Positions 28,347-53,953 of a DNA stretch of 64,000 bases are shown here, one piece after another. Where the stretch lies: assembly GCA_902728285.1 (NCBI GenBank), contig CACVBU010000352.1, positions 1 through 64,000 of the forward strand, written 5' to 3'. Under the pieces are notes generated by a model that did not search any database, had not been told where the DNA came from, and saw nothing but the letters and a program-made list of their open reading frames with translations. A program made the translations under genes and the position numbers. Source of the stretch: Clytia hemisphaerica (taxonomy: Eukaryota > Cnidaria > Hydrozoa > Leptothecata > Clytiidae). Within the stretch, counting starts at the first letter, position 1, and each line of letters begins with the position of its first letter.

Positions 28347-29158
28347 TTAAAAAGATGTTATTGCAACTTGTTGACGTTTGGGCTTCGGTTCTACGAATGT
28401 CGGATGATTGGTTCGACAACACATCTGTAAAGGTTTTGCCAAGAATTTTCGAAACTCTGAAATCCTTCCAACATAAATGAAGACATTCGCCATGTTATTG
28501 ATGCAGATTCCATATTGATGGCAAAAATACGCGATATATCCAGCTTCAGTCCAAGAGAATTCATAAAACGTTGGTATGAAATGACCCAATATAGGATACA
28601 GTAATCCGTAAAAACTTCCTGGTACAACGCAAATCGTATAAAGAATGAGCAACATTTTTAAAGTCTTAAGAGCTTTCTTGTTTCTTGCTGTAATTGCTGC
28701 TCCTGTCTGTCCATCCATTTTCAAAGAAGATGAAAGGCGATTTCGGGATTTGAAATAGAGAACCAGAAAAATGCTAAGAGGCACAACAACATTTGCAATG
28801 AAATAGAATGCGTAATAACCAATAGCAAACGAAGACGAGAAGCTTTCAAAGGCGTCGAAATAGCATTCTTGAGTTTCAGCATAATATACTGTCTTTATAA
28901 ATTGAGGGATGGCTGCCAAGAAGAAAATAGACCAAACAATTAAGCAAGCCAAAGTAATTCTGACTTTACCAAAGTTCTCAGCCATCGGATCTTTGATTCT
29001 TCGATACCGGTCAAAAGACATTCCACAGAGAATCCAACAAGAAACAGTAACTCCAACAAAAGGGACGGAAATTGCTTTACACATAAGCTCGTTGGCATAA
29101 CTTGTAGCAAAGGTGTATTGAATTTCCACTACAGGGACTCCAACACAGACAATCAAAC
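28347..29158 (-). pseudogene. Rhodopsin-class (class A) GPCR, 5'-truncated
   Basis: The minus-strand frame (about 270 codons, stop at 28347) encodes a seven-transmembrane receptor from late TM2 to the cytoplasmic tail. Visible landmarks are ELMCKAI at the top of TM3 (the conserved disulphide Cys), FDRYRRIKDP as the DRY motif, a Cys in extracellular loop 2 (TQECYFDAF), a basic third intracellular loop with KKALKTLKML entering TM6, and NNMANVFIYV in TM7 in the place of NPxxY. The tail contains Cys-Cys (QMCCR), possibly palmitoylated. TM6 lacks the usual CWxP. The ligand cannot be inferred. TM1 and most of TM2 are missing: the frame runs into a hAT-like end at 29159, so the receptor is either truncated by that insertion or continues in a distant exon. 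Confidence 0.85.
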
Positions 29159-29260
29159 AGGGGCGTATCTAGGATTTTAAGGATACCCTGCAAAAAATAT
29201 TCAGCTATATATAGTGATTCAGCTATATATAGTATCTAAGGAGGGCCCACCATGGTTGGG
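29159..29260 (+). mobile_element. hAT-like transposon end (solo terminal repeat)
   Basis: CAGGGGCGTATCTAGGATTT is a typical hAT-type terminal sequence and lies exactly where the GPCR frame breaks. No complementary end ('GATACGCCCCTG') is found nearby, so only one end is visible. A 17-bp direct repeat (ATTCAGCTATATATAGT) sits at 29201-29234. Confidence 0.55.
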
Positions 29261-30710
29261 CCCGACGGGCCAGAAAATTTTTGAATTTCGACCCTCTAGA
29301 TTGGCTAAAACAGCCTCCTTTTTATGCCAAATGTACCCTGACCATGAACCATTTTCAAAAAGTAGTGTACATGTATGTGTATACAACTAGCAATACAAAG
29401 TACTAAAAAATGAACTTACATTATCCAGGGCTTTGGGTTCTGAAGATTTTGTGTACATATGAGTACCAAAGTGTAGACATTCTTAATGTGTTGTTCTTTG
29501 TTGCTCTTCGCTAAAATTGTTATTGTTATTCTTCCCTGAAAATAAAGACCCCTATATCTGTGCTCCAGTGGGATGGAATTTAGGAAATTCTAATTTCACT
29601 GACATGTAAAATATTTTTTGATTTAGTTTGGTATCCGAAATAATACTTCAAGTACATTGGAAAGAGGCATATTTGGGTTGGTTTACAGTTTAATGAACTT
29701 TTGACTAAGTAACCACTGGGCCACAGATACTGGGGTGCAAGTGATTTCTTGGTCTGTTTCGCCTAATCGTCAGGGCTCATCAGTATGCCTAGGACCCAGT
29801 CCAGACATAGACAGACCACAACACAAACATTAAAACAAGACAAACATGAAAGAAACAAATAGACAACAGAACAAACGAAAAACATAAATAAAACAACAAA
29901 TCTAACGAAATATATACATATGATAAATGTAACAAAAATGTTATGTTTTTTAAGTTTTCTTTTTTAGTTTTTTTTTAAGAACATAAAGCTTATTTACATA
30001 CTTTCTGTTTTAAGAGTTTAAACTTTGTACAGACTTTTTGTTTTAAACTACTTATATACATTTTTATTTACATTTACTAGTAAGCATACTTTGTAGGAGG
30101 ATTTTTATTTTCAATCGTTTATTTAACAAATAACAAACATTAGACAGGCAGCTAATTGCATCAAAAAAAGTGAAACAGTGAAAAATTAAGGGACAATTCA
30201 TAAAGTAGATATTCATGTTACAAATACATTTTTGATACAAATGCACTTACTCGGCGTTCTTGAAATCATTTAAGGTCAATGATATTCACAAAACAAATCA
30301 TAAAAAATACGATTCATCTCTCACTCAAAATCCGCCATCTTTTACACTTCTCTTCTGCTGTTTCTCTCTTTTTCTCAATCGTTCGATTTCAAAACATACA
30401 ACAATCACGGGGGTTTGTAAGTTTTTATAAATCCCATTAAAATGTTGATAAACAAATTATTAAACTCAATCTACTTTATCAACTCTTTTTTCTTATTTAC
30501 TTTAAAATAACTCATTTAGCTTATTGTTATCAAACTAGTGTTACATTAGGAAAAGTAGTTAAAAAGAAAAGCAACATGAACCCCCTGAATTGTTTCTATT
30601 TACATTTCTAATTATTTTAACGCGGGAAAAAGTAAAAATGTGCGTCTTAGAAAAAAAAATTTCGGAGAGAAAAAGAAGATGGTGTTTTTGTTTTTGGTTT
30701 TTTTTCTGTA
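29261..30710. other. Gene-free stretch
   Basis: No gene is supported. 29690-29830 contains a 'GGTCTGTTTCGCCTAATC..AGGGCTCATCAG' segment of the kind found in dispersed SINE-like repeats, not delimited here. The rest is AT-rich; its end is the 5' flank of the gene starting at 30711. Confidence 0.4.
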
Positions 30711-33700
30711 ATGGAACTGCCTTCATCCCCTCCTTCGACCAAGAAGAAAAATAAAAGATTGGTTTTGACTCCTAAGAGAAGAAGTAAGAAAACACAGGAG
30801 CTTGTATCGAGATGTATCTTACACCACGCTAACTCTGGAGCAAGTGCCCAAAATTTGAAGTTGAGAAAGTTCTCGCAAAATGCTTTGGATAAAGTAAAAA
30901 ATGCAAGGTGAGTGAACCTCTTCCTTAATTCATTAAAAGCTGGTTGTTTGATTTTTGACATTATAGTAGTTTTATTTTTCTACTTTTTAAACTTCTTACG
31001 TACTTTTTTGGGTGAGAGTGCAACAAACCCTCCACTAGCCTGGGTCCGTGGTAAAAAAATGCTACGGATTTACAACAGAGCAAGCTCTAGCCCGTATCCG
31101 CGCAAGAAAGAAACATTAGTCAAAGATTTTCGAGCAGCACATGACGCTCGAGTTTACAGTTTGATTTATAGGCGCGCATAAGAAGGAGTGGATGTGCTTT
31201 ATTTACGGGTTTATTTATGGTTTTATGGAGCCATAGCTTACTTCAATAATTTTATGATCTTATTATGTCCGAAATACTAAACCTACGGAGTTATCTTTTC
31301 CTTCTACTCTCTTCTTGCTCATTTTTATCAGTGAAATACGCAAAGACGACAAAGTAATCCATCTGGTTCGTGATCTGAATCTTGAGATTTCTAATGAATT
31401 GCAATTCCATAACGAATGCTACGGGATTTATACCCATTCGACCACTCTCAAACGCATTCAAAAGAGGTACGCAGAGGAGGAAACCACTTCGAATGACGAT
31501 GATGATGATGATGATTCGAATCCGTTACGCAGATCAAACCGGAAGCGAGATCGTTGTGGTAAGCACTTAAATCATTTTCAAGCTTACCTTTCCGAGTAAC
31601 GGCACGGAGTTTACTCCTATTAAGTACTTTTTTTATAAGGCGAAAGGGAAAAATCGTTTTTTATTTTCTTCTAGTCAACATTTTCGAACCAGATTATTTG
31701 CATTTAAATTTTTAGGACGGGTATTGGCTGACGTGGAATGTTGTATCTGCTACAAAAAGAAATGTATGAAAGGTGGAGGCTATGAGCCAGTTACGAAATG
31801 TACCACGCGACAAGCTGCCGAGACACTTCAGAGATATGCTTTAGCATGTGATTCTAATCCCAATCTTCGCGCATATATGAGTGGTTTGAATTGGAATTCG
31901 ATTGTCCCACAGGAAATTCATTACCATAGAACTTGCTATCAATCTTTCACACGGCCAATAGTTGAAGCTCCAAAAAGTCCTGAAAACGAGGAATCTTTAA
32001 TTTTCAATTTTTTCACATAGACGCGACATATTCTCACTTTTAACTCTCTTGGCCTTGGGACTTTTCCAAAAGCCAATTAAAATAAAATATTTTTACATGT
32101 TCCACAAAATACTTCATTTACAAAATTGATGTAACTCTGAAAAATATCATATTCAACAAACTTCGAAACCTCAAAAAATCCAAAACTTTACATAATTTCG
32201 AACACTTTGAGGGGTCCATCAATTTCATCCACTGATATTTTACAAATTACATAGCTGTTTTAGGATAACAATCGCAAATGTCCCGAAATATCACACCAAC
32301 TTTATCCTACCTGGAGTAATCCTGGTTGGATACTGGATGATGTGATATTTTATAAAAGATACATAATTTCAAACATTTTGAGGGGTCTATCAATTTCATC
32401 CACTGATATTTTACAAATTACATAGCTGTGTTTAGGATAACGACCGCAAATGTCCAGAAATATCACACCAACTTTATCCTACCCGGAGTAATCCTGGTTG
32501 GATACTGGATGATGTGATATTTTACAATAGGCGCAAGAAATTTCTNGGCCACCGAATGAAAACGAACTCATTACATCCAAAACACATATCCCTGCCGAGT
32601 TAGAACTATTAATGACGACTGTGCTCACGGCAACTCCTATCTCAAGACTAAGCGAACGTAAGAAAGCCATTATTTCATCACTTTGCGAGGACGTGATTTA
32701 TAACAGTAGAGCTGGTCGTTTTCGGTGCTCGAAACAAACAAAACTGGGATTTTGTATCAAAAGGAAAACGGGCTCGAAAACACTGGTCGGTTGGATGAAT
32801 AAGTTCGGCCATTGCATTTCTTATGACGATGTTAACTACCTTGAAACTATTCTCGCAATGGATGCAATGTACAACGAATCAATCCGAAGTTTTGTCCATC
32901 ACTATTCTACCATCTATATTCGTTACGTTCGTCTGGGACAACAATGATATCAATCCGGAATCGATCAAAGGTTGTTTATTATAGGTCGCTTTTTCATTTT
33001 AGTGTTTCTATACTTTACTGAAATGGTTTGCCAATCAATTTACACAGTCATGCGTTAACTTCGAGTCAAGCTAAAGGACTTCATAAAAGAACAAGTTGAC
33101 CAGCATTGAAGCTTAAATTTTCAGTTTGATTTTTAAGTGTGTGTGATAATTTCTTTCCTTTTTCAGCTTAGGGAGAAGCTCACAAAATTGGGGCTGTTAA
33201 TCAAGTAAACATTTCTTAATTTAAGAATTTCTTAATTTAGGTGTATCAATGCACGTTACCAACGGTATCGTTTATCCAACTAAAACATGAATCGAACAAT
33301 CAAACGAGAAGGATAAGTCAACGCCTAAATACAAACCGAAAACGTTCTTTCGAAGCTGTGGAAAACCCGCTCCTAAAATACAATTCAACAAAGAAGAGAG
33401 ATGGGCCAGAGAACAAGAAACTACCTAAAGAGAATGAAAGTGACTTGTTTCGTGCTTGCGAGCTGTGAATTTCTTTTGGGCATTCTTACGGGCTCATTCC
33501 AATCTTGTGCCAGGGGAAAGGATTTAACTACCTCATAACACCAGAGCCTAACGACCAAGTTCACAATATTTGCTACTTACCAGCAATAAATAAATCACCA
33601 ACCAAGATGGATGCTGTCTTGGAGCTGTTAACCCAATCAAAAATGAAAGCTGAAAAACTCGGGTTAGCAGAAACTGATGTTGTCTTGGATCAGGCTATTT

Positions 33701-36700
33701 ATGCCAAGGCTTGTGAGTTGGGTTCGCCATTGGCAGATTCCTCATTATTTAATCGAGTCATATCCCATGTTCAAGTTTTTTTTATCTCATCAAGAATCTA
33801 CTGGGTCCAAGTCAATCAAATCGATTTGTCCTTATTTTTTAGATTTTGATGAATCCAGTCTACAAGGAGCTAAAAGACTTCATCGTTCTTCGAATGGGTG
33901 CCTTCCATGCACAATGCATTTTTATTGCTGTTATTGGGAAGAGGTTTGCAGACGCTGGTTTGAGAGATTGGATTATCGAAGGAGACTTGATTGGTGAGAC
34001 AATAAAATAAAGTTTTGAATAATGCTAATAAGATCTTTACATGTCATGTATCCATAACTCGAGCGAACAGCTTAATTCTAAATGGACCTTATCTGTAATC
34101 AAGAGTTATTTTAGCATCTAAAATTTGTAAGTAACTTCTATCTGTTTTTCGATTTATGTGTATTTTTCCTATTCAATCAGGGAGCGGATCGTTGGAAGGT
34201 GTTCTCAACGGCAAGCAATATAACTATGCAACAAGGGTGTTAGAGAACGTGTACGACGCTTTGTCACGCTTCAAGGTGGAAAATTTCAAAGAATGGATCC
34301 GTGAAAGAGGCAAGGCCAGCGAAAACATCCTTGAACGAGTGATTTCTTCATCAGACTTTGAGTTGTGTAAAGAAAAGGTACTTTTTGAATTTAATCAGAC
34401 GTGTTTTTAGCAATGATTTTCATCTTCGGAATAAGCATAAAAGCACAATTTGGAGTCTTCACCATTCTGGTTGCTCTGCGGTTTAGGAGACAAAGAGACA
34501 GGGTGTGGTAAGAGTAGTTGTAAGTTTTTTGAATTATTGTTCAATTAAGCCAACTCTGGAAGCGCTTTCCGCCGTATTTGACGATACTGAGTTCATTGAA
34601 CTTATCGAACTACACGAAAAGGTTTTGAAAAACGAACGCGGTCCAACATCAACGTTTGGTTATTCATTCATTGAGATGATGGACATTCTCTTCAACTTTC
34701 AACGGTCCATCAAGCTTGGCGATTGGAACTTACATTTAGAGACGACGAAAAAGATGATTCCGTGGTTTTTCGCGTACGATCGCCCTAATTATTCACGCTT
34801 CTTTACGTATTACTGGTCAGACATGGTTCAACTTCCTACTTCGCATCCAATATCTACGAAGAATTCAAGTTAGGCCAATTAATCATTATTTCACTTTTTC
34901 GGTCTTCATATTTGTCTTGTCATCACATACTTTTTGATTCATCCCTTAATTGCTGTTCAAAAAATCTTTCTCGGAAATCTTAAACTTAAGTTACGCTCTT
35001 TTTTAGAAACGGGAATTTTGCTGTCCAAAGAACTTGCGGAAAGTTTAACAAGGTTCCATCTGATCAAGCGATTGAACAAACAATCAACAGGGATCAGAAG
35101 TGTCATGGTGGTATCAAAGGATATAGCACTTCTCCTGGAACGATTCACGTTGGGTATTGACTAGCCACATTGCTTCGAAATGTATTAACGACATTGAAAA
35201 TTCTTTTGGTCAAAACGAAGAAACCAACAATCCCTAAAGATTTAGGAAAATCTCGCCACACGTTCAATAACTGTAGTTGTTGAAAAAGCCTACGAGGTTT
35301 TGAATTGCTGGGGTTCCCTTTTCAAAAGCGGGACGCCCATCAATGTACTTCTGGGCACAAAGCATCTCCTTTGGTTGAAAATGATTTGATTAAGGCTGTT
35401 GGAAAGGGTGAGACTGCGATGAAAAGTTTCATTCGTGATCGTATTGAAACGTCACAGAAATTGTTCTACGATCCGATCAACAAACTGAAGCTCAAAACGT
35501 TTTCCTACATGACAACGAAGACAACGATGAAGATTAATGATAAATTAGTGACACTTGCTGCTGAAAGGTCGATGTTTGGTCGGCTTCTCGTCATCGCTAA
35601 ATGTGAGTCAGGAATATCCCTACGTCAGGTGCTCCAGTATTCCCTCAGTCCAATCCATGGGCTCTTGGTCTTCCTGATGGTACAATGGTGAAAACAATGA
35701 AATCCAGCTGATGAGTAAGTAGAATGATAGCCTTGCTATTTTTTTTTGAGTTTTCTGACTTATTTATGTCAATGTCAAATAAGAAATATAATTTAATTAA
35801 GGAGTGATTATTTCTTGTTTTGTCTCCTCCCCTATTTTCAGCTGTTTTAGAGAATGTGTAATCAATTTCTTTTTTTTACCTTTAGCTGCGATCGAATGAA
35901 TGTTCTGGTCCAGTGACGTATACCCTTCCGAACGACATCCCCTATATCTTTGATGGATGGTCCTTCTCCAACAAGTTGACCCGAAGAAAGTTGAAACGTT
36001 TGGTGATGTATCCAAATCAATTCTCGAGAGGATAGCAGTCAGCTCTATTGTATATTTTGTGACAGACCAGTATAAGAAGGTTCGGTGAAGTCTTTCGAAA
36101 GACAGAGAAGACAGAACAACGGTACAATCAAAATGGAAGTAGGAAAACATCGTTTGTGTCCAAAACAATGGAGCAAGTTTTTGGCAGATTTATCCAACAA
36201 GTTGGAGCTGTGTGATTTTATTTTGAAAGATTGGACTAATCATCACTCAAACATCATTGAAGGTCGGACCATCTACTTCAACTTGGGATCAAAATTCTTC
36301 AAGCTGACTTCATCTAACGGCCAGGTTTGTGACATACTTACTATTCTTATAGCACTTTAGTACAAAGTTTGTGACAAAGAATTAATATTTAGTAGATTAT
36401 AGCTAATGATTTTTCTTGTCTCTATTGTTCAGGTACTCTGTGAAGAAGAACTCAACCTATCGACGGATCAAGAAGAAGCCAACCAACACTAAAGTGTTCC
36501 TGTGTGGAAAACATGCTGCTCGTCAACATCTAGCCGAGAAAGTTTGCATCAAGACCGTCGACAGTGACATATCGATTTATGCCATCTATTTCCAATCCCA
36601 TTTCAATGGAACAAAGTTGTACGTCGAGACTGGTTCAGGTGAGAATCTCCGAACCCTTGATATCACGGCCATTGCCAAGCATCTTGGAGAAGGTTGTTGT

Positions 36701-37445
36701 AAAGTGTTGCCAGCACTCCATGCTTTCACTGGCAATGACTATACCAGCGCTTTCCATGGTATTGGGAAGGTCAAAGCCATGAAACTGATCAAAGAATCAA
36801 AGAAATTTCGGAAAGCATTCAAACGAATCGGTGAGAGCTTTGATTTTAATGCGAAGTACTTTCCCGTCATCGAGGAGTTTGTCTGCATGTTGTATGGTGC
36901 AAAAGGATGTACAAACGTCAACGAGGCGAGATACGCAAAATTCTTTTCCGCCAAAAATGGTAGCACCGAGCCTCAAAAATTACCACCTACACGAGACGCA
37001 CTACTTCAACACTGCAAACGCGTCTCCTACGTACGTCACTGCCGTCATCAAACGATCCTTGGAAAACAATCCCAATATTCCAGACCCTGATGGTTATGGT
37101 TGGTCGAGAAACGGTGACACACTTAGTATCAAGTGGATGCTTCTCCCCCCAGCACCTCCGCAAATCTTGGAACAAATTTCGTGTGGCTGTAAGAAAGGGT
37201 GTACGACCCGTTCCTGCTCTTGCAGAGCCCACGGGATTAGTTGTACAGAGTTTTGCAGATGTAAAGGGTGCACAAATGCCGCAAACGAAGACCACATTGA
37301 TCAAGACGAAGGCGATGAACACGAGGAGGGCTTCAACGAGGATCAGCTCCAAGACATGTTGGAGGAAGAAGTGGACGCGGACACTGATGTTGATTTTGAC
37401 GTTGATAACGAACGCTTTGAAAATGTTTTGAAAGTGTTGACATGA
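30711..37445 (+). pseudogene. FEN/XPG-like nuclease with CXC (Tesmin/TSO1) domain, multi-exon, frameshifted
   Basis: Likely exons: 30711-30907, 31332-31558, 31716-about 32020, 32531-32970, 33241-about 33740, 33843-33993, 34181-34377, about 34505-34868, 35007-35714, 35886-36324 and 36433-37445. Most introns are GT..AG and in phase. The N-terminus has a Lys-rich tail and two Cys/His modules ending HNECYGIYTH and HYHRTCYQSF; the second starts CCIC. The centre has FGHCISYDDV and DQAIYAKA, then LRMGAFH. From 35886 onward the acidic residues of FEN/XPG nucleases appear in order: IFDGW, VYFVTDQYKKGSVKSFERQ, DQEEAN, TVDSDIS and AFTGNDYTSAFHGIGKVKA. The C-terminus carries a CGCKKGC...CSCRAHG...C.CKGC domain and an acidic tail. 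I count about a dozen single-base frameshifts (for example near 32890, 33285, 34850, 35147, 35980, 36078, 36482 and 37030), so this copy is probably dead. I recognise the family as highly multicopy in cnidarians, which suggests a mobile origin; the nuclease role is inferred. Confidence 0.8.
32192..32533 (+). repeat. Two-copy tandem repeat, 171-bp unit, between exons
   Basis: ATAATTTCGAACACTTTGAG at 32192 recurs as ATAATTTCAAACATTTTGAG at 32363, and the copies match through GGATGATGTGATATTTTA. It lies between the second Cys/His module and the next exon of the nuclease-like gene, next to an unresolved base at 32546. Confidence 0.9.
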
Positions 37446-37892
37446 TGAAATTTAAACTCTAGATTATGTATATATTATGTATATAATGTATTATATTGTA
37501 TGTATGGGTGGGTACTTTTTCTATTGTCGGATTCAAAGTCTAAAGCTGTGCTAGTAAAGTACTCTTGATCGAGTTACAATCTTTACTTTTTCCTCCCGTT
37601 TTCTTTTAAACCCATATTAGTTTATGGTATTTCTCATTATTTTTTAGAATTGTTTTTAACCCAACTTGAGTGTAGATAGTTATTTCGCATTAAAAAGGTC
37701 ACAAAACTTTTATTTGTATTGATTGTCGCAGAAAACGACATCCCTCAGCAAGAGGTCACGTGACATATTTCAATGGCTTATAACTTTCGATAGAACAGAC
37801 CTTTTTCTTAATCTACGTTCAAATACGCGTCGATCGGTATATAATATGTCTATGTTTGGCGTCAACAATTTTTCGTTTTGCTTGTGACGTCA
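37446..37892. other. 3' flank, no gene
   Basis: AT-rich sequence after the stop of the CXC gene. Nothing else is recognised. Confidence 0.4.
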
Positions 37893-37927
37893 TCAGTTAA
37901 GAAAATATTACCGGACGCGTCCGGTAA
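37893..37927 (-). other. Perfect 20-bp palindrome followed by CTGA: possible Helitron 3' end
   Basis: TTACCGGACGCGTCCGGTAA at 37908-37927 is a perfect palindrome. On the minus strand it is followed by 11 bases and then CTGA, next to a T. Helitrons end in a hairpin, about 10-12 bases and CTRR, inserted before T. The same strand carries the RPA-like gene and the helicase remnant upstream. The match may be chance, since CTRR is short. Confidence 0.35.
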
Positions 37928-38144
37928 ATATTTTTTCGGACGCCGAGTAAGTGTTTTCGGATCAGTAGACATATAGGAATAAGAAAAACCAGCTCGGCAT
38001 TTGTCCCAAAGTCATCCAGATTTTGGATGTCGTCAGCTGCCTGTCTAAAGTTCTGTAATTTTTGTGATTGTGCGTTTGTTTTTTGAATAAGTTATTTTAG
38101 CCATGTCCGACAGCTCTAATATCTCATCTTCGACATCTTCTTTT

Positions 38145-40406
38145 TCAAAATGAAGAAAGTTCTTTCCCAAAAGAATGCAAAACCTCGGGGAAGAACGTTA
38201 AGGAGAGAGGATCATCATCGTTATTTTCAAGTTGGACATTACCCACAAATCCTAATGGTAGTTTGATAATCAATAATCTTCCTCCACAGAGCTGACATGA
38301 CAAACTCTTTTGGTTTGGGGGCACTGTGATTTTTTTCTTACAATGAACGCAAGTTGGAAACAGATCAACGGAACATCCAATAATGGAAGCGACGAAAGTA
38401 GGAAAGAATTTATCCTTGTGGGCTTTCTCTATTTTATCCCAATCTAACATATCCACTGCATTCCAATTAACATCTGTTACAGCAGAAGCATCAATTTTGA
38501 TTGTTGACGTGTCAGTCAAATCCAATTTTGGATAAGACCAAAGTGTTTTCAGTTTAAGTTGGGTAAACTCGAATACAGCCTTTTCGGTGCTAACCTTGTC
38601 TATTATCTTTCCCCACACTGTGACTGAAATAGAAGAAGTAGTGGTTTCCACAATGACTCCATCTCTTGCTCTTTCATTGGATTTATCCTTCTTTTCAACG
38701 ACGGTTTCATCTTTGATCCAGGCGAACGCACCTTTTACGTTAAAAGTGCCCATTTCATTTGATATGATGGTGCTGATGGGCGTGAACAAATTATGTTCAT
38801 AATAAATATTGGCGGTAACATGCTCCTTTATGACCGTCGAGAATTTGTATATTGAGTTATAAAACAGCACGTTGTCACCTTGCGTAAGCTGTGTCAGTCT
38901 AACTGGTATTTGCCGCGCGTCTAGGAAAAAAGATCGTTTGATGGAACGGTTATGTTTTTTCATCACGCGAATAATGGATTGTTCATTGGGTGATGTCTTC
39001 AAATGTACATCAAAATATTTGTTTCCAGTGTGCTTGCTCATGACTGATTGAGTGACATTTGTGATGTAACCAGTTAAATCTAAATAAAATTAAATTAAAT
39101 TTATGATAAATAAATAAAATAAAGTCTAATTTTTTGGGGGGAGGAATTTGAGCTCTGACAAACTACCTTAAAGGAAGAAATTTTGCCAAACAGAAAATTT
39201 GGTGGATTTGGCCAAAATCCGCCAAATTATGTTTCCGCCAAAATTTTCCTTTTTCCGTCATCCGCCAAATTTTTCGCCAAATTTTTCTCATATTTAGTTC
39301 AATTTTTCACTATTTCTGCCCCAAAAGGGTGTATTTTTAACATTTTCAACTTGATTTTGAACTTTAAAATCCATTGTCCCCCAAATTAAATTCACGCAGA
39401 AATTAATTTTATTGCTGATCCGCCAAATTAAATTTCTTCTGAAAAAACTTTTTCGGCCTCCCGTCAAATTAAATTCCTTTATTAAGGGTAACCCAAAAAT
39501 TGGCATTTGAAATCAGACATCGTTCAGCTTGTCATTGTCAACTGAATTGTAAAATGAAGTTAAATTACCTTGTAAATTAGCAGATTTCTTAGCTGGTGAT
39601 GAATGAGAGGATGATGGTGTTGATGGTGAATAATAAAGTCGTTTTCTTCCTGGAGCCGAGTCTTTAAAAATGAAAAAATTAAATTAAAAGATATTTTTAA
39701 GGTTGCACGAGGTAAAAGTTACCATTTAAAAATTGAAAAAAAAACAGCTCAAATATTTTTTCCTATTTTTTCGCTTGTTGCATGTAGACATAAAATGTGA
39801 TTTCGAGAATCATCTAAAACTGTTTGTATATAAAAATGTGATTGACAATTTATACTGTACCTCTATTACTGCTTGTAGATGAAGATTTTTCAGGCGTTTT
39901 TGTATCAGCTTTTTCAGGTGTTGTTGAAAGAAAACCTAAAAATAGAATATTGAGACAAATATAGTAAAAACAAAAAAGGATTTTAGTCAAAATAAATTTT
40001 GAGCAAAGAGTTTGCAAAATTAGCTGCAATAATTAATTGGAGGAATTAGTGCGGATTAAATTACCCTTAAAAAAGGGGACTAATTTTTTGCAAAACATTT
40101 TTTTCGCGAAATTCAAAATTTTTGCGAGAAGTTATTTTTGCGATTAGCATAAATTGATAGATTTTGCTGGAATTAAATTTCGCAAGTTTCGCAAAGGTTT
40201 TAAGAAAAAAAGCAGAAATAACATATTTTGGCCCTATTTCCTTCTTTATTGAGAGAAGCTTGGAAAAGAAGATTTTCGTCTTGCAAAAAAACAATAAGAT
40301 AAAGAAGAAAATTCGCAAAATTTGATTTTGCAAAATTGATATTAAAAAATAGAATGTAAAAACAAAACTAACCTTGGGACATTGAATGGTTTGATTCGGA
40401 ACTCAT
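38145..40406 (-). CDS. RPA-like OB-fold single-strand DNA-binding protein, four exons, intact
   Basis: Exons are 40373-40406 (ATG at 40406), 39861-39935, 39569-39661 and 38145-39079. All introns are GT..AG, all are phase 1, and the total is 1,137 nt: 378 codons plus stop. The N-terminal 65 residues are Ser/Thr/Pro/Lys-rich and look disordered. The body has the arrangement of RPA70-type proteins: a region beginning LTGYITNV, an OB-fold strand pattern around SSISVTVWGKIIDKV, and a C-terminal Cys cluster (CVHCKKK...CQLCGG) like the zinc-containing third OB fold. Such proteins bind single-stranded DNA in replication and repair. RPA-like genes are also carried by many Helitrons, and a same-strand helicase remnant lies 0.5 kb upstream. 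Intactness beside decayed neighbours suggests recent activity or selection. The assignment rests on motif pattern; the N-terminal exons have no recognisable domain. Confidence 0.75.
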
Positions 40407-40901: not shown

Positions 40902-41823
40902 TTAATATCCATTCTTATTTCTTGATGCTAACTCTTCTAGTCTGCTTTCTTCGCGCACTCTAAATTTAAATCTTTTCCCATCACTCAATTTATTTATTCT
41001 TTCGAATGGAAATGATTCAATGACCATGTCAGTTAGCTTTTTCACACGTGATAATGCAACATAAGTTAAACCATGCTGTCTTTCTTTACCAAATCCACTA
41101 CAACTTTATCTAATGTTAGACCTTGAGATTTGTGAATTGTTATTGACCATGCAAGCTTCAAAGGTATCTGCATCCTTTCTTTCTGAATATTATCTTCAGA
41201 TGAAGTCTCAACGATAGGCATGATCGGAACACAACTATCTTCGTCATAAAAAAAACTTGGCCCTGTATATTTATCAAATTTTACAATAACAGCTATAGGA
41301 AGCGCAGGTGGTAGATGGTTTCTTTGGAATATTATGTCTTTGACAATGCCTAAACTTCCGTTACAAAGCCCTACATCTGACCACAAGTTTCTTGTAAGCA
41401 TTACTTTGGCACCTTTAGCAAGGAAAACTTCATTTACTAAACCAAATTCTTCTGAGGAAGATTTTGACGCACTTGGTGGAGTATTTTTTGCTTTGATGAC
41501 TGCAATAGGTGATTGTAAAGAATCCAACATTCTCCCATTATGTTCTCTCACAACTTCATTTGCAAATGACAGTCTAATACATTTATCATAATCAACAGGG
41601 TTTTTTTCAGGCTGTCTAGTCAAGAAAAAATTCCAGTCTTCCATTGTTGATTTTCCATTTCTCTAATTTTTCAAAGCTTTTCTAAATTTCTTTTGAGACT
41701 CATTCTCACCAGCTGATTTCATATTTGATTTGAGTTTCACAACAGTTCTAAATCTTTCAATCAAAACGTCGAGGGACTTAGATGTTATGGTAAAGTTTGT
41801 TGTTAAGAACGTAATGTCTGCAT
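40902..41823 (-). pseudogene. PIF1/Helitron-type helicase, C-terminal remnant
   Basis: The minus strand encodes the C-terminal half of an SF1B helicase: a segment ending FRKALKN, then RNGKSTMEDWNFFLTRQPE, GAKVMLTRNLWSDVGLCNGS (with the LxxGxxVMLxxN..xxGLxNGx pattern), IPLKLAWSITIHKSQGLTLD (motif V, HKSQG), then YVALSRVKKL (motif VI). The stop lies at 40902. An in-frame TAG at 41663-41665, where relatives have Leu, and a one-base shift near 41090 disable it. Walker A/B motifs are absent: homology ends near 41823. PIF1-like helicases and Helitron RepHel share these motifs, so both origins are possible; the adjacent RPA-like gene favours Helitron. Confidence 0.85.
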
Positions 41824-42202
41824 GTCATTTTTTCAAAGAGAAAGAGAATGCAGTCCTCGAATTTCAGGTTGGCAATCGGCAATGCTGACCTTAAAACCGA
41901 CCTAAAATGTTAAAAAGACATTAGAAAATTGCCGAGCTGCCGACCCCTACTTTTTTCAAATTCGAGAGCTTTGAATGAAAGTGAGAATAGCTTCGTGCTA
42001 ATCTGTTATTTTTTTAGTATTTGAACTAGGCTGTTTGGCAATCAAATTTCAATCATTTGATTGCGTTCAATTGACATCGTCTTGGCATTAAAAAAGGTAT
42101 GTTTTTGTCGCCAAGGAGAGAGAGGGGGTCAAAAGAAAAGTAATCAACGGGTCAAAAGCATGTCAATTATTCTAAATTCTTTCAATTTTTGCGTTTTGTT
42201 GG
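41824..42202. other. Spacer with ATCGAA/TCAATTG-type motifs
   Basis: No gene. 42045-42085 (CAATCATTTGATTGCG..ACATCGTC) resembles one end of the CCAGAC family elements at 19566-20261. Confidence 0.4.
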
Positions 42203-43049
42203 TGTTGCGGCCATCATAACATTGGCCTCAAGAGACTTGTGTATATATCATGACGTATGTTGTTTCGGTAACTATATTCCCATTTGGGAATTCGCGTATG
42301 ATATCGCGTTTTAATGTTTAATTTAATTAGTTTTTTAATGCTCCAATGCACAATTTTCTCCATTTTATCTCGCCCGTTTTTGCTTTTGAATTCAATCTAG
42401 AAATTGTTATGAGAACGTGTAGACGTTTTGAGGAGTTTGTAGAAACTCCATTTTCACTTCTCGTTGGAGAAACTTTAAAGTTAACATTTTAGAGTTATTG
42501 AATTGATTTTCATTTTGGATTTACTTGAGAATTTATTTTGGTATTTCCTGTGGAGCCATCCATACACAGTGCTTTGGAGCTTATGTTTCAGTAAGTTTTT
42601 CCTATATTTTTCCTATTTTTTGTACATTTTTTTTGGTACTAGATTCCCTAGGATTCTTTAGATTTTTCCTTGAATTTTGGTCACCTTTTGACCTGGTCTG
42701 TGACTTTCGTTTAGTCGATTTTGGAGTCATTTTCCTAGCTATTTTTCTGGTCACAAACCGTTAGTCTTTTGGGCATTACATTTCGTCCTTTGGTCGTATT
42801 GGCTTCATACTCTATTTCTGGCCTCTATTTCCCCTCTGTTTGCTCTAGGGCCATTTTACTTTCGGAGTTCCGTATAGTTTTCCGTATTCCGGTATTGGCC
42901 CTTTCCATCCGGAACTGACTGATTTCCGGGATTCGGAACTTAGCTATTTTTATTTTATTTTAAATTCTAATTAGGCTTTCTTTGTATTTTTCTAGCCTCT
43001 GAATCAATAAAGAGCGTTGTAACACACTACACTGTTTTGGGCTTCCACA
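42203..43049 (+). repeat. 5' LTR of the BEL/Pao element
   Basis: 847 bp. It is nearly identical to 53954-54791 apart from scattered substitutions and a few indels, including about 27 bp present here near 42702-42730 and absent from the 3' copy. AATAAAGAG near 43009 could serve as the polyadenylation signal. No clear tRNA primer-binding site follows at 43050. Confidence 0.93.
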
Positions 43050-43064
43050 AAGTGAAACAAAAGA

Positions 43065-45351
43065 ATGAATGGAGACGATGTCGATCGTCCCCTAGAACTC
43101 GTCGGAGTTCACAATGGAGATGAAGATGTTGACCGTACCGCTACAGATGTTGACCGTACCGCCATAGATGTTGACCGTTCCGCCACAGATGTTGACCGTA
43201 CCGCCACAGATGTTGACCAGACCGCCATAGAAGTCAATCAACCCAGAGATGAGGGAGATGCTAGTCGTGCAGGTACCCAAGTTGTCGAGGAGCCTGATGA
43301 CAAACAGAGCATACCATCTCAAGATGACGAAACAGGATCGCTTTTACTTGGTGCAACAGCTCTATCCCCAATACGTCGCTACCCAAAAAGAGAAAGACAA
43401 CTAACCGAGAAGGGTAAGAAATCACGCATTCAACACTTATTTGCTGAACGAAAAAGACTTCTCAACAGATTAGAGAAACGAGGCAAGTCTATGATGGAAA
43501 CATTAGCCCTGCTGGATCAAAGTCTTATCAAGAGTCGACTTCAACAGTACAACGAAACAGCATTAACTTTCGAGGGCACTCACAATGAGCTGAACGAGTT
43601 ACTCGACCCACACGAAAAGGCTGAAGACCAGTATTGGTTTACCACAGTTGATGATCAAATCAATGATAGACAGACAGACATTAAATCGTCAAGAAGAAGA
43701 AAGAAGCATTGCATCATCACGTAAATCTTTGCAATCATCACGATCATCAAAATCCTCTAAATCGTCACGATCATCAAAATCTTCTAAATCATCACGATCA
43801 TCAAGGTCGCCTAAATCCTTACGATCGTCACATTCTTCAAGTTCTTCAATGGTTTCCAAGTTGTCAAAATCCACTCACTCTTCGAAATCGTCAAAGAAGT
43901 CAGGATCCACATCACCAACATGGAGTTCACCAAGATCGAGACATAGTCAACTTTCTGATCAACTGCTTGAAGAAGAGATCAAACGAGCCGAACTACTAGC
44001 AGAGTCAAAATTCATCGAAGAAGAATATGACCATGCTCAAAGGACAAAGGAACTGAAACTACAACATCAGATAGCATTATATTCAGCAAGGATTGATGTG
44101 CTTCGTACAAGAACCTCGAATGAAGATCAAGCTGACACAAGTCAAGCCAAGCAGGAGCCACCTGCGGCACCAACAAACATTGATCCATCAAAGACTCTAT
44201 CGCCAATCAGAAGACAAGCCATGCAGGAGCCACCTGCGGCGTCACACCTTGATCAATCGTCGACACACCTACCGTCAATCGGCAGACAAGTCATGCAGGA
44301 GCCACCTGCGGCGTCACGCTTTGATCAACCAAAGACGCATCAATCCTCAACCAGCAAACAAGCCATACAGGAGCCACCTGCGGCGTCACACCTTGATCAA
44401 TCGTCGACACACCTACCGTCAATCGGCGGACAAGTCATGCAGGAGCCACCTGCGGTGTCACGCTTTGGTCAACCAAAGACGCATCAATCCTCAACCAGCA
44501 AACAAGCCATGCAGGAGCCACCTGCGGTGTCACACCTTGATCAATCGTCGACACATCTACCGTCAATCGGCAGACAAGTCATGCAGGAGCCACCTGCGAC
44601 TTCACGCTTTGATCAACCAAAGATGCATCAATCTTCAACCAGCAAACAAGCCACGCAGGAGCCACCTGCGGCATCACACCTTGATCAATCGTCGACACAT
44701 CTACCGTCAATCGGCAGACAAGTCATGCAGGAGCCACCTGCGACATCACGCTTTGATCAACCAAAGATGCATAAATCTTCAACTAGCAAGCAAGCCATGC
44801 AGGAGCCACCTGCGGCGTCACACCTTGATCAATCGTCGACACACCTACCGCCAATCGGCAGACAAGTCATGCAGGAGCCACCTGCAGCGTCACGCTTTGA
44901 TCAACCAAAGACGCATCAATCTTCAACCAGAAAACTAACCATGCAGAAGCCTTCTGCGCCATCAATCAATTTAATCCATCAAGGAGACACCTATCGTCAA
45001 TCAAACAAGCCTTGCCGGAGCCACCTGAGGCGACATTCAACATTGATCAGTCAAGGATGTACCGATCACCCGTCAATACCCAAGCCATGCAGGAGCCACC
45101 TGCGGCATCTCAATGTTCCAAACAGACAAAATTGTACCCATTGACTTACATGCATCAAGCCAAGCAAAATCCGACTGCGATATCACATCCACGCCATTCT
45201 ATGACATCAATTAACACAGAACCATTTCAACATTCAAGCTTACCAGTTCAGGCTTCATCGATGGATGATATTATGGAGACTTATTCACCAATTACGTCAT
45301 CGAAAAGGACGTTCCTGAACCGCTGTCGACGAACGATCTGCTATTTGCCAT

Positions 45352-45385: not shown

Positions 45386-47832
45386 TATACAAGTTCAAGG
45401 CACACGAGGGCCTCTGAGAACCGGATCTTGATTACAATTGTCTTGTCTCGAATCTTTTCGGATGTTTTTTCCAAGCTTCGTTGAGTCTTTCTTTAAAGAT
45501 TTTGACAGTCTTTGCCTCTACAACGTATCTTGGTAATCTATTCCAGTTTGGTATACTCCTGTAAAAGAACGAGTTGGTTTGTGCGCCTCGGAATCCATCT
45601 TTACCAAAATTTGGTATCAGCTCATCATTGTGTCTCCTGTTCGGACGTGTTCGAGTCGATAATTTACTTGGAAGAGTATTTTTATCGTAGTAGTGGAGAT
45701 GTTTGTATACTTGGACCATATCACAAAAGAGTCTCCTGAATTCAAGCGTGGGGAGGTCAAGTATGCGCAAGCGTTCTTCATAGGACATATCTTTGCAGAT
45801 AGGCACGAGTCTTGTGGCGCGTCTTTGTACACCCTCGATCAAATCAACATATTTTCGAAGTTTAGGTGACCATACCGACTGAGCATACTCCAAGTGCGGA
45901 CGGACAAACGAAGTATATAGTACTAGGAAGATGGATGGATTCAGATGTTCAAAGCTCCTGTTAATCACTCCTAGTATTGAATTTGCCTTCTTTACCTGCT
46001 TTGCAATATGCTCCTCGAATGTAAGTTCTGAGTCGATCACAATCCCAAGATCTTTCTCTTCAAAAACATGTTCAAGCTGATTTCCATCCAAACAATATGG
46101 ATAGGCATGCTTGATGTCAGAGAATTTGCCAATAGTTAGTACGTGACATTTGTCGGGATGGAAATTTAATAACCATTCTTTCGACCACTTGACTAGCGCG
46201 TCTATATCCTGTTGGATGGAAATAGAGTCTTCGATAGTGTTGACCTCTTGGAAGATTTTGGTGTCATCAGCAAAAAGGAGTATAAATGATGATATCACTC
46301 TTTCAGGAAGATCGTTGATGTAAAGAACGAACAATAATGGTCCAAGGACACTACCCTGTGGGATACCACTAACCACGTGATCCGTTGTCGAAAATGATTT
46401 ATTTACTTTCACTGATTGGGTTCGTCCATTTAAAAATGATTTTACCCAAGACATTATCGGACCATCTATGCCGTATGCTAATAGTTTCTTGCATAAACGA
46501 CGATGAGGTACAGTGTCAAAGGCCTTTGCGAAATCAAAATAGATACTATCAATCACTTTTCCTTCTGATGTACTTTCACAGCACGTATCCAAGTAATACA
46601 ACAGTTGCGTAACGGTGGATCGATTTTTGATAAAACCATATTGCTTGTTCGATAAAAGATGTTGATCAAGAAGATGCTCCATAATATGCTTTCTCACTAT
46701 TGACTCCATCAGTTTGCATACTATTGATGTCAAGCTTACAGGTCGATAATTTACTGCAAGATTTTGAGCACCTTTGTTCTTATATATGGGTATTACGTGA
46801 GCTTCTTTCCAATCCTTTGGTAGAGACCCTTCCTTTAATGATGTGTTCATTATTACTGCAAGAGGTTCAGAGACGTAGTCAGATAACGACAGTAGCATCT
46901 TAGGATGTATTCCATCAGGACCAAATGATTTATTTTGATTTAGATGTTTTATTTCGATCTGGATCATTTCTTTTGTTATATGGATTTCATCGATTACGGA
47001 CTCAGTTCTTTTCTCGAAGTCCGGTAGCTCCCCAGGAGGCTCTCTTGTGAAAACACTGCAGAATTGACGTTGAAGTATATTCGCCTTTTCATGGTCTTCA
47101 TGTTTCAAAGAATTTTTGTCATTTGGTGCCTCAAGTAATGATGATACCGTACTGGAAGATTTCATTTTGCTCCTGACATGTGACCAGAAAACTTTTGGTT
47201 TTGTTTTTGAATTGTTGCAGATTTTCCGTTCGTAATTTCTATGGGCTTGTGTCATCATTTTCGTCACTCGGTTGCGTACACGGGTGTATTTCACGCGATT
47301 CTCGTCTTTCTCTCGCGGCGATGATTTCATCCATTTTCTATGTAGACGCTTTTTCTTTGCTATTTCAGTCCTGAGATCTTTTGGAATAGGAATTCTTCCT
47401 CTCTTTCTCCAACCCTCGCCTCCAATCGTTTTGAGCGGGATGAAACGGTTTTGCAATTCGCTTACTTTATTCTTGAAAACTTGCCAAAGTTCCTCGACTG
47501 ATTTGTTATTAGCCGCATCTAGAAAAATCGTTTGCCAGTTACCTGTTTCAAGATCTTGCTTCATTGCTTCAAAATCAGCATTATCATAATTGTACCTTTC
47601 CGATGTGGGCTTTACATATGCATTGCACTTTATGCTAAAGGTCAGGGAACTGTGATCGCTTTTACCCAATGGACTGAGATATTCCAGATTTTGTGTTTGG
47701 TTGGCTTCTCCTGTTAGAATGAGATCAACCAAAGATGGTTCATCGGTTCCACGGCATCGTGTTGGTTCGTCTACGTTCTGATGGAGGAAAGAGTCGCGGA
47801 GAGTATCTAAAAACTTCTCTTCTTCTTCTTCT
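45355..47832 (-). mobile_element. CR1-like non-LTR retrotransposon, 5'-truncated, with (TTA)n tail
   Basis: The minus strand carries an uninterrupted frame from about 47830 to the stop at 45432. It starts in the APE endonuclease (VDLILTGE, LGKSDHSSLTF with the catalytic SDH), then has a Lys/Arg-rich linker, an RT core (KSFGPDGIHPKML, YRPVSLTSIVCKLMES, YFDFAKAFDTVPHRRL, GIPQGSVLGPLLFVLYINDL, LFADDTKIF) and the CR1 tail (YTSFVRPHLEYAQSVWSPKL, WNRLPRYVVEAKTV). Its 3' end is an (AAT)n/(TTA)n microsatellite at 45355-45384. TGTT at 45351-45354 recurs at 47833-47836 as a short target duplication. The host gag codons resume precisely afterwards. The intact frame shows that the insertion is young; only the 5' part (ORF1 and most of the endonuclease) is missing. 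Related older pieces are at 14593-14998 and 17776-18509. Confidence 0.93.
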
Positions 47833-49455
47833 TGTTGAAACAACAAGAGGCACCACGTGTGGACGACGTGGAATCGTACGATTGAGATCCACTCAACTAT
47901 GCACATTTCATCTCTGTTTTCAAGGAAGCAGTTGAATCGAAAATCCCAAATCCTAGAGGAAGGCTGACAAGACTGATGAAGTACACCACAGCTGAAGCTC
48001 ATGAAGCAATCAAACATTGCATCCAACTACCGTCTGCATATGGCTACTCCTCCGCATTGGATATACTCAAGAAGAGATTTTTGAAATCCACATCTGATTT
48101 TATCGGCATATCGCAACCAAATCAAAAATATGCAATCATTACGATTCAGCAACCCTAAAGGTTTTCGCGAATTCCTGAACCATCTGACCAAATGGCAGAC
48201 CTTCTACTGTGATCACTCTAACGTCCTGGATTCACCAGAAACCATCAGGCTGCTATTGGAGAAGTTACCACCACCTCTCATCGACAGATGGAATCGAAAG
48301 GCTATGATACTCCGTCAATCAAATGCAACGGAGCCAACTTTGAAAGATTTTGTCGCGTTCATGGAGCAAGAGACAACCCTTGTGAATGATCCATTGTACT
48401 CTCATCATGCTATCAGTAAAGATTCTTCACCCAAACAATTGGAGAAAGGTCATTCAAGAAACCCAAGACGTTCCTTCAAGACTGCTGCAACCAAGAACGA
48501 ACAAACGCCAAGGATCAAAATCTGTCCGTTCTGTGAGCAACAACATGACGCAGAAGATTGCCCAGTCATCTTAGCAAAGGATATCAACCAACGTAGCATC
48601 ATGATAAGATCAAAGAAACTTTGTTTTGGATGTCTCATGATCACAACGCCCGAACGTGCACAAAGCGACGAACCTGTAAAGTATGTCGATCCAAGCATGC
48701 AACTATCCTCCACGGTTTCAAATTTCGACCCAGTTCAACCAAGAGAGACGATCGATCATGCTGATGGAGACAATTCAGACAATAGAACTGATACCAAGGA
48801 CAAAGGGAAATCAGATCATCATATGAATAAAGATACCAAAGATGTGAAGGAAGACACAGATCAACCTCAAACCAAAACAACAACTTGTCGTGCAACCAAT
48901 TGTCATGAAGTTATATCAATGTGTGTAGTTCCAATCTGCATCAAACATGCAGACGATCCCTTATCAGAAAGACACACCCTTGCGATGCTCGACCCCTGCA
49001 GCCAAGCATCATTTATTGCTGATACCTTGGTTGACCGGATGAACATCAAAGGACCTACCACCTCCTTATCAATCACCACAGTGAATGGAACTAGTGAAGT
49101 CAATTCTACCGTCGTCAAGGAGCTGAGTGTCAGAGCGTTAAACAGCAACCAAACGATCACTGTTAAGAAAGCATTCTCAAGAGAAGATCTACCAGTCGAC
49201 CAAAATGAGATCGCCACCAAATCCAAGATCAAAGCATGGGATTACCTGAGCAAAATCAAAGATAGCTTACCTGACAATGACCATCAACCTGTTGAGCTTC
49301 TTATCGGTGCAGAGCCTGTGCCTCAAAGCTATCGAACCAATCGAAGTCATCCCAAGTCAAGATTGAGGTCCATTTGCTTATCGCACCGTTATCGGATGGT
49401 GCATCGTTGGACCATTAGAATCCTCCACAAAGAGCCAATCAATTGGATGTCATAG
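47833..49455 (+). pseudogene. BEL/Pao gag C-terminus and aspartic protease
   Basis: After the insertion, gag continues (HFISVFKEAVESKI, LTRLMKYTTAEAHEAIKHCI); an in-frame TGA lies at 47883. The frame shifts near 48140 into a long open segment: FLNHLTKWQTFY, then a zinc knuckle CPFCEQQHDAEDC (CX2CX3HX4C), an acidic Asp/Lys/Thr-rich linker, and the retropepsin-like LAMLDPCSQASFIADTL, where Bel/Pao proteases have the catalytic Asp (here DPCS instead of D-S/T/P-G). Frame is lost again near 49325. Confidence 0.85.
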
Positions 49456-50880
49456 AACCATTTTCAATGACATATCAGAAAAATCAAAGAGCAATCACTT
49501 CGTTTTCAAGACCAATGTGAAAGAAATGGACATTGGAGAAATGTACGAGTCGTTGTACAACACTGATTTGTCGAAAACCAGTCTAACCAACGTATCGACT
49601 TTGAAGATTCACACATGTCAGTCGAAGACAAAAGGTTTATGTCCATTATGGAAGGAAAGACAACAATGGATGATGGTCACTATGTACTTCCATTACCACT
49701 CAGAGATGGAGAAGGCAACTTACCAAACAACAGATGCATTGCAGAAAGACGATTAGCAAGTCTCAAACGCAAGCTTGAACGCAACCCTACCTTTTTCGAC
49801 CACTACATGACGTTTATGGATACCATATTGAAGAATGGTCATGCAAGAATCGCCAAACCATGGAGTTCTGTCACGTTTTCGTCAAGGTCGGATTGGAGTA
49901 ATGGCAGACATCCAAGCTATGTTTTATCAAGTGTTTGTTCCTGAACATCAACGATCCCTTCTTCGCTTCCTTTGGTGGAAAGACAACGATCTAACTACAA
50001 CACCTATCGACTACGAAATGAACGTCCACGTCTTTGGTGCAGGATCATCAGCAAGCTGTTCAAGTTATGCACTCAGAAGAACAGCCATCGACAATCAAGA
50101 AGATTTCCCCGACAAGATACGTAACATTCTTTTCAACAATTTCTACGTCGATGATATGTTGAAATCAGAAGATGACGAACAAGAAACCATTGAAATGATA
50201 CAGGGTGTCAAATCGCTATGTAAACGAGGAGGATTAAACCTCGTAAAGTTCGTAACCAACAGTCAAACCGTGCTCAATTCTCTACCAAAAGAGGATCTTG
50301 GATCGTCACTCAAGGATGCATCCCTACTGGGTGGACTCACTGACAAAGCACTCGGTGTGTCCTGGAATCTCAGTGATGACGTGTTCAAATTCGATCTAAC
50401 AGAAGCGAAGCAGAAACCTCTGACAAGACGAGGAATGTTGTCCATGATAAGCAGCATCTATGACCCTCTTGGATTGATATCACCATTCATCCTGAAAGGA
50501 AGACTTATTCTCCAAACTTTGTGCAAGATGCAACATGGCTGGGATGATCAAATTCCAGAGGACATTGCAACTGATTAGATAAAATGGTATTCCGACCTTG
50601 AAGATATCAAATTGATCAGCATACCACGATGTTATCAGCCAGATGACTTTGGTACGCCAGTTGAGAAATCATTCCACCACTTCTCAGATGCTTCTGAGAG
50701 AGGATATGGACAAGTGACATACTTGAGACAAATCAACCAAGAAGTCAAAATCCATTGTTCCTTGGTAATTGGCAAATCACGTGTTGCACCAATCCAATTT
50801 GTATCAATACCAAGGCTTGAGCTGACAGCAGGAGTATTGTCCACAAAGATCTGCAATCTTGTCGAGAAAGAAGTACAAAT
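49456..50880 (+). pseudogene. BEL/Pao reverse transcriptase and RNase H start, with internal deletion
   Basis: Segments in changing frames read EDKRFMSIMEGKTTM and DGHYVLPLPLRD, typical of the Bel/Pao RT N-terminus, then FDHYMTFMDTILKNGHARI. Next comes SRFRQGRIGVMADIQAMFYQ (first catalytic Asp) and NNFYVDDMLKSED (the YVDD box), then MLSMISSIYDPLGLISPF of the connection. The stretch that should hold the conserved PHHGV and VVFDxS motifs, roughly 60 residues, is missing at about 49862. A TGA-TAG region at 50572-50578 interrupts the frame before RNase H (HHFSDASERGYGQVTYLR, IPRLELTAGVLSTKI), which is then cut at 50880. Confidence 0.88.
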
Positions 50881-52055
50881 CAAAGGCATACGGGCTCAGT
50901 GAGAGTGCCGTCCAATTAATGCACAGCTATTTAAGCAATAGGAAGCACAGAGTTCGTATAGGTTCTCATTTAAGTTCATGGCTCGATATTTTATTAGGAG
51001 TACCCCAAGGGTCTATCCTTGGGCCATTACTTTTTAATATATTCATAAACGATCTATTTTATATCATAGATGAAATTTTAAATTTTGCAGATGATAACAC
51101 TTTATCTTCTTCTGGATCAAACTTGGATGAAGTTAACGCAAACCTTTTACACCAACTAAGCATCGTTCTTGATTGGTTTAAGCATAACTCAATGGTTGCA
51201 AATCCCTCCAAGTTTCAACTTATTTACCCCGGTACTTTTAACGCCGATGTTTCTCTTCCTGTTGGTAAAAACAACATTAAGAACGTCGATGTCGTGAAAC
51301 TTCTGGGTATAAAAATCGATGCAAAATTATCTTTTATTCCTCACGTCACCGAATTAAGTAAAAAATCTAACCAAAAACTAAGGGCATTGAGAAGGGTGAG
51401 ACATTTTTTATCAGAAGATCAAGCAAAACTTCTTATAAACTCCTATATTCTCTCACCATTTAACTATTGTCCATTAGTCTGGATGTTTTGCGGTAAAGGG
51501 GGTAGCAGCCTTATTGAGAAATGCCACCACAGAGCACTATGTGCTTTGAAAAACAAAACCATCTCGGAATATGACGACTTATTAACTGACTGTAATGCGG
51601 TGAGTATTCATACACGAAACCTAAAACTTCTCCTCATGGAAGTATTTAAATCTACACATGGCCTTGGACCACGTATCATGCATGGCATATTCACGGCATT
51701 GCAGTCACGTTACAAGCTTCGTTCTGGTCACACTCTTTCTCTTCCTCTATATAAAAAATACAATAGTGCATTTGGTGTTAACACATTTGACTTTAGAGCA
51801 GTTTCAACCTGGAACTAACTACCATCCTCTATTAAGTCGCTTGAAAATTTAGATTCCTTTAAAAATGCTCTAAAAAATGTCTTACCTATCTGCACTTGTA
51901 AAAATTGTACATAGTTTTTTTTTTTCTCAGTTCTTTTTTTTCAATATATATATTTTTAATGTTTTTATGACAGTTGGATTTGATTAGAAACTTACTTGTA
52001 ATTTTCTAGATACCACCCAACTTAAAATAAAGAATAAATAAAAAATAAAATAAAT
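50881..52055 (+). mobile_element. Second nested non-LTR element, 5'-truncated, A-rich tail
   Basis: It begins inside an RT open frame (AYGLSESAVQLMHSYLSN) and continues through LLGVPQGSILGPLLFNIFI, LNFADDNTL (the catalytic pair within FADD), VVKLLGIKIDAKLSF and NYCPLVWMFCG to a stop near 51818. The 3' end is AAATAAATAAAAAATAAAATAA-like. The flanking (C)AAAT at 50876-50880 and AAAT at 52052-52055 suggest a short target duplication; host RNase H codons resume at 52056. It has the same orientation as the host, opposite to the CR1 at 45355, and is not closely similar to it. Confidence 0.9.
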
Positions 52056-53934: not shown

Positions 53935-53953
53935 TCATATGAGAGGAGCCATG

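Follow-up and report, generated by a model that had tools for sequence, protein, structure and literature searches.

Organization of the locus

The window analysed here is a stretch of 64,000 nucleotides from the hydrozoan Clytia hemisphaerica (GenBank assembly GCA_902728285.1, contig CACVBU010000352.1, positions 1 to 64,000), which is rich in retroelements. A large gene occupies positions 30711-37445 of the forward strand, and its start ATG at 30711 and last stop codon at 37443-37445 agree with the coordinates originally given for it. The gene is decayed: to piece it together, the frame had to be changed six times across gaps of no more than 4 bases, and two in-frame stops had to be skipped. 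Three introns have readable GT..AG borders, set against the eleven or so exons first proposed. The features of the locus are as follows.

30128..30272, + strand: apparent left terminal inverted repeat, diverged (local alignment to the right arm)
30711..37445, + strand: decayed spliced gene with Cys/His modules, putative transposase core, FEN/XPG-like nuclease and CXC domain
30711..31999, + strand: N-terminal part with two Cys/His modules (pieced from 30711-30905, 31330-31557 and 31715-31999)
32189..32530, no strand assigned: direct repeat pair in tandem within the gene, about 171 bases each, 94% identical
32549..35154, + strand: putative DDE/D-type transposase core (candidate motifs, sub-threshold DUF6589 match)
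within 32907-32972, + strand: candidate motif WDNND (first D), our own reading
near 33679-33711, + strand: candidate motif VVLDQAIYAKA (second D), our own reading
near 33891-33908, + strand: candidate motif RMGAFH, our own reading
within 34487-34870, + strand: candidate motif DWNLHLE..NYSRF, our own reading
35886..37030, + strand: FEN/XPG-like nuclease segment (IFDGW, VTDQY..KSFERQRR, DQEEAN, TVDSD, GNDY..GIGK)
35946-35960, + strand: IFDGW
36059-36073, + strand: VTDQY
36088-36111, + strand: KSFERQRR
36466-36483, + strand: DQEEAN
36554-36568, + strand: TVDSD
36731-36742, + strand: GNDY
36758-36769, + strand: GIGK
37179..37277, + strand: CXC (tesmin/TSO1-like) domain with nine cysteines (Pfam TCR, PDB LIN54)
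37925..38061, - strand: apparent right terminal inverted repeat (pairs best with the left arm across the window)

Both of the Cys/His modules proposed for the N-terminus are present, the first cluster ending in HNECYGIYT and the second starting with CCICYKKKC and ending in HRTCYQSFT. Their mutual likeness is restricted to about 19 residues around HxxCYxxYT, with a score that was reached by 3 of 1000 shuffles. The only Pfam match to the N-terminus was PHD_2, at E values of 0.054-0.25.

The nuclease-like segment and the CXC domain

All of the FEN/XPG acidic motifs that had been listed for the gene were found in the expected order on the forward strand, the breakage of the copy having scattered them over several frames. 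None of 20,000 shuffles matched a loose pattern of these ordered motifs; as the pattern was composed after inspection of the sequence, a profile comparison with controls and the match to the NCBIfam family fen_arch are the fairer tests. The reference for the profile comparison was an alignment of three sequences (Rad2, XPG and FEN1), two rows of which were taken from PDB output. The C-terminal half of the nuclease matched this profile with a probability of 92.4% and 32% identity over 76 columns, with the aspartates in register (TVDSD with TDDSD, GNDY with GSDY) and GNDYTSAFHGIGKVKAM aligned to GSDYTNGLKGMGPVSSIE. Its score of 43.5 compares with a maximum of 23.1 among shuffles (n=300) and of 16.8 among the remaining 105 of the 106 frames in the window with 80 residues or more, and a piece of the putative transposase, used as a control, reached a probability of 0.2%.

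For the intact frame 36488-37030, fen_arch was the sole NCBIfam match (E 0.0016), with 17.6 bits where the cut-off is 352. The top PDB matches obtained with phmmer were two Rad2 sequences with E values of 0.14 and 0.24, which are not significant alone, and the TVDSD aspartates are out of register in the phmmer alignment to Rad2. Neither XPG_I nor XPG_N was reported by Pfam at E values up to 10 for the read-through of the gene, and the search of PHROGs with the nuclease returned only an unnamed family (E 0.16). The longest intact nuclease frame, again 36488-37030, was modelled by AlphaFold from the single sequence with a mean pLDDT of 37.8, too low for a usable model.

As for membership in the FEN/XPG family, the ordered acidic motifs and the helix-hairpin motif are present, and one position of a FEN1 carboxylate, which we take to be E158, is aligned to a glutamine in the profile register. 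The likeness to the XPG/Rad2 and FEN1 nucleases thus comprises the ordered motifs, the profile match across the catalytic and helix-hairpin part, and Rad2 as the best PDB match, whereas the present protein scores far below the family cut-offs and has its nuclease joined to a CXC domain and to a part that resembles a transposase. Judged from these comparisons, the segment is likely homologous to FEN/XPG nucleases, the signal being weak in absolute score but specific; the nuclease core that had been proposed for the gene is in this sense upheld by the profile probability of 92% and by fen_arch.

The C-terminal CXC domain assigned to the gene was likewise recovered, with nine cysteines at 37179-37277 and matches to Pfam TCR and LIN54. 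The cysteine-rich CXC signature is present, and the TCR match (E 0.0016 in the open frame and 0.0036 in the read-through) was below the Pfam cut-off both times. In the PDB, the best match to this part was LIN54 (5fd3, E 0.05), followed by the unrelated fibrinogen alpha chain at E 0.14. The cysteine spacing is common to this domain and the CXC domains of tesmin, TSO1 and LIN54, whereas the present protein carries one CXC unit at the end of what appears to be a transposon protein.

A candidate transposase core upstream of the nuclease

The central part of the gene, 557 residues as pieced and positioned upstream of the nuclease segment, was undiscussed in the original prediction. This stretch of about 550 residues ahead of the nuclease resembles a transposase core, and the candidate motifs suggest one of the DDE/D type. 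Pfam DUF6589, a domain of unknown function, matched within 34487-34870 below the cut-off both in the open frame (E 0.025) and in the read-through (E 0.12), with profile positions 271-319 matched to 49 residues of the central part. No paper was found in the literature under the name DUF6589, and a PDB sequence search with the central part yielded no match. A segment from a family of animal proteins, presumably a relative, was 39% identical over the central part; we treat it as a lead only. In what we take to be this relative, an E stands in the DWNLHLE motif where the present copy has N. We suggest that the central part is a better candidate for the transposase than the nuclease is, so that the latter would be an accessory domain; the proposal of a system "built on" a flap endonuclease is accordingly not supported in that form.

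Apparent terminal inverted repeats

A repeat search showed inverted arms to either side of the gene. When 29800-30750 was aligned locally with the reverse of 37440-38300, 30128-30272 paired with 38061-37925. In these arms, 92 of 135 ungapped positions are identical and 12 columns are gaps, and the alignment score of 66 compares with maxima of 53 for 500 Markov sequences and 44 for 276 other pieces of the window. Under the strictest scoring, only the outer 41 columns were aligned and the margin was narrow (39, compared with maxima of 38 and 32 for 500 Markov sequences and 276 window pieces), and under very lenient scoring the signal was lost (99 versus a shuffle maximum of 132). Two 14-mers are shared by the arms, an outer one, TTAGACAGGCAGCT (30140-30153), and an inner one, CACTTACTCGGCGT (30244-30257), which recur in the right arm at 38035-38048 and 37940-37953. 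Allowing up to 2 mismatches, both are restricted to the two arms across the window, where they form one pair in inverted order; two or more 14-mer matches were seen in 4 and 0 shuffles, out of 100 each.

For the right arm, the left arm scores 66 and the next unrelated place in the window 30. The left arm also matches an A/T-rich stretch at 12223-12319 (score 56), at which the right arm scores only 20, and the inverted repeat is therefore strong, not overwhelming. Beyond the arms, likeness was found only in an A/T-rich stretch (score 37), with no convincing continuation. The arms lie about 440 bases upstream of the ATG and about 480 bases downstream of the stop, a near-symmetric bracket around the gene, and look like the diverged terminal inverted repeats of a transposon. 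As for a target duplication, with diverged arms and one copy, only an ambiguous TA was seen by eye at the TTAGACAGG and CCTGTCTAA ends, itself within the repeat. The mobility suggested for this gene gains support from an inverted repeat that brackets it (30128-30272 and 37925-38061).

At its inner edge, the right arm carries a near-perfect palindrome around ACCGGACGCGTCCGGT (37905-37935), which is absent from the left arm. Adjacent to the right arm, an RPA-like ORF with OB-fold and zinc-ribbon lies on the reverse strand (38148-39089), and a further frame carries it on as far as a stop codon within the right arm (38045-38047). It matched REPA_OB_2 at E 0.038 and, beside other weak matches, NCBIfam replication factor A at E 0.006; a PDB search with it gave no sensible match. 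The C-terminal piece of a Pif1-type helicase follows on the same strand (41069-41662; Pif1_2B_dom, E 1e-7). These two pieces are probably adjoining Helitron-like remnants.

Search for further copies and relatives

According to the original prediction, this arrangement may be present in very many copies in cnidarians and some arthropods. A tblastn search with the twelve open pieces found no second copy of the gene within the window, the best other match having an E value of 0.26 or worse. Among viral contigs, searched with nuclease and transposase pieces, with a DNA pattern and with an alignment, no relative was confirmed (10, 3, 0 and 41 pattern stretches), nor was any of the 38 pattern stretches in prokaryote genome contigs. 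Two bacterial loci obtained from the DNA pattern were counted as chance, as their best tblastn E values were 0.092 and 0.26, at the pattern only, and a 66-residue match to the nuclease part in one of them (E 0.017) was unrelated. As the collections searched are viral or prokaryotic, these results are silent on animals.

A probable Academ transposon and the alternatives

The gene and its domain order, the weak and specific FEN/XPG match, the CXC match, the bracketing inverted repeat and the decay are read directly from the locus. As inverted repeats enclose a decaying copy of a gene whose protein has zinc modules, a large core, a nuclease resembling XPG and a Cys-rich tail, we favour the reading that a DNA transposon lies here, most likely what is left of a broken cut-and-paste jumping gene. 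AcademX elements encode an XPG nuclease (the X stands for XPG) and a Cys-rich finger. The lineages AcademH and AcademX are said to have been described by Kojima in 2020. In the accessible text of PMC10045372, target duplications are given as 9-10 bp for AcademH and 3-4 bp for AcademX and are tied to "helicase and nuclease"; in that of PMC10294476, Academ elements have TIRs and, with a mean of 5565 bp in bivalves, are among the longest. The present element would measure 7934 bp with the inserted repeat pair counted in, and it has two features of the X lineage, the XPG-type nuclease (with its weak absolute score) and the terminal inverted repeats. Set beside AcademX by description, as far as the available text of the source goes, it shares the length, the terminal inverted repeats and the combination of a transposase, here putative, with a nuclease, whereas the present copy is dead and a 3-4 bp target duplication could not be read at its diverged ends. 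On the strength of the described architecture, we consider it probable that the locus holds a dead DNA transposon, about 7.9 kb long (30128-38061), which belongs to the Academ superfamily and most likely to its X lineage. The element would thus probably fall into a transposon group that has been described before and not represent a new system. Of the earlier interpretation, the FEN/XPG-like core, the CXC domain and mobility are supported; the foundation on a flap endonuclease is not supported as proposed, nor is the label of an uncharacterised family, given the fit with the described AcademX DNA transposons. No sign of a conflict or defence role surfaced in these comparisons.

An unlikely, but the most serious, alternative is that the gene belongs to a separate, unnamed superfamily of animal DNA transposons outside Academ, with the same three-part protein, in which a FEN/XPG flap nuclease accompanies a DDE/D transposase, and with terminal inverted repeats; the nuclease would then make the second-strand cut that is elsewhere made by hairpin formation or a second DDE cleavage. 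The anatomy would be identical under both readings, Academ being known here by description and not by sequence, and beyond PMC10045372 the literature searches found no open-access paper that joins XPG with transposase and target duplications or describes an XPG-nuclease transposon. Against a separate superfamily, AcademX as described already combines transposase and nuclease.

Readings that dispense with such a transposon fare less well. A multi-copy family of host genes, that is, ordinary nuclease genes that carry a CXC domain and were duplicated, here a pseudogene flanked by a coincidental inverted repeat, appears improbable: it would suit a gene that is spliced, and with one copy in the window shared termini could not be seen in a second, but the inverted repeat is tight and near-even around the gene with statistics above chance, and the surroundings are rich in transposable elements. 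Still less credence is given to the nuclease gene as cargo of a larger Helitron-like element with the Pif1-type helicase and the RPA-like ORF. These proteins and the flap nuclease are all of replication type, and the stop of the RPA-like frame (38045-38047) falls inside the right arm; however, the neighbours are on the opposite strand, the inverted repeat encloses no gene but that of the nuclease, the RPA match is weak, and no Rep nuclease was seen by eye among the listed ORFs, which have 110 residues or more. Helitrons carry a Rep nuclease and a Pif1 helicase in the same gene and have no terminal inverted repeats. The gene at 30711-37445 was rejected as a Helitron itself, as a Pfam match to Rep or Pif1 is absent from the scanned pieces and an inverted repeat is present.

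Returning to the Academ transposon, the N-terminal Cys/His modules and the C-terminal CXC domain of the single large protein may bind the terminal inverted repeats, and the putative central RNase H-like DDE/D core would cut and join strands at the element ends and the target. FEN/XPG relatives cut branched DNA and 5' flaps; the FEN/XPG domain may act on the 5' strand, cutting or trimming this second strand at the element ends, or on flaps left by strand transfer, and may in this way help to set the short target duplication. Every catalytic step is extrapolated from the protein families, and while we hold the class of mechanism to be probable, its details deserve less confidence. Annotators tend to leave genes of this type "uncharacterised". 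If the Academ reading is true, this gene type would be transposon-derived, and its expansion would need no story of conflict. The question is then raised why a DDE/D transposon bears a flap nuclease, and whether the nuclease sets the length of the duplication, as PMC10045372 suggests for the two Academ lineages.

Other elements in the window

On the forward strand, 48085-53931 contains frames for an aspartyl protease and for an integrase with DUF5641, interrupted by an RT-like frame at 50826-51815; we take these to be probably a retroelement of the BEL/Pao type. A direct duplication of 847 bases, 92.6% identical, is located at 42202-43049 and 53953-54791, the latter copy just past the integrase/DUF5641 frame (52441-53931). 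An uninterrupted, LINE-like frame of 864 residues with endonuclease and reverse transcriptase occupies 45435-48026 on the reverse strand (RVT_1, E 1.5e-33), and a frame with the integrase core domain rva_4 lies at 55858-56769 on the forward strand (E 4.1e-8). In addition, 72-base units form a tandem array within a long open frame at 44052-45114, and a 273-residue frame on the reverse strand (28350-29168) resembles, by eye, a rhodopsin-type receptor.
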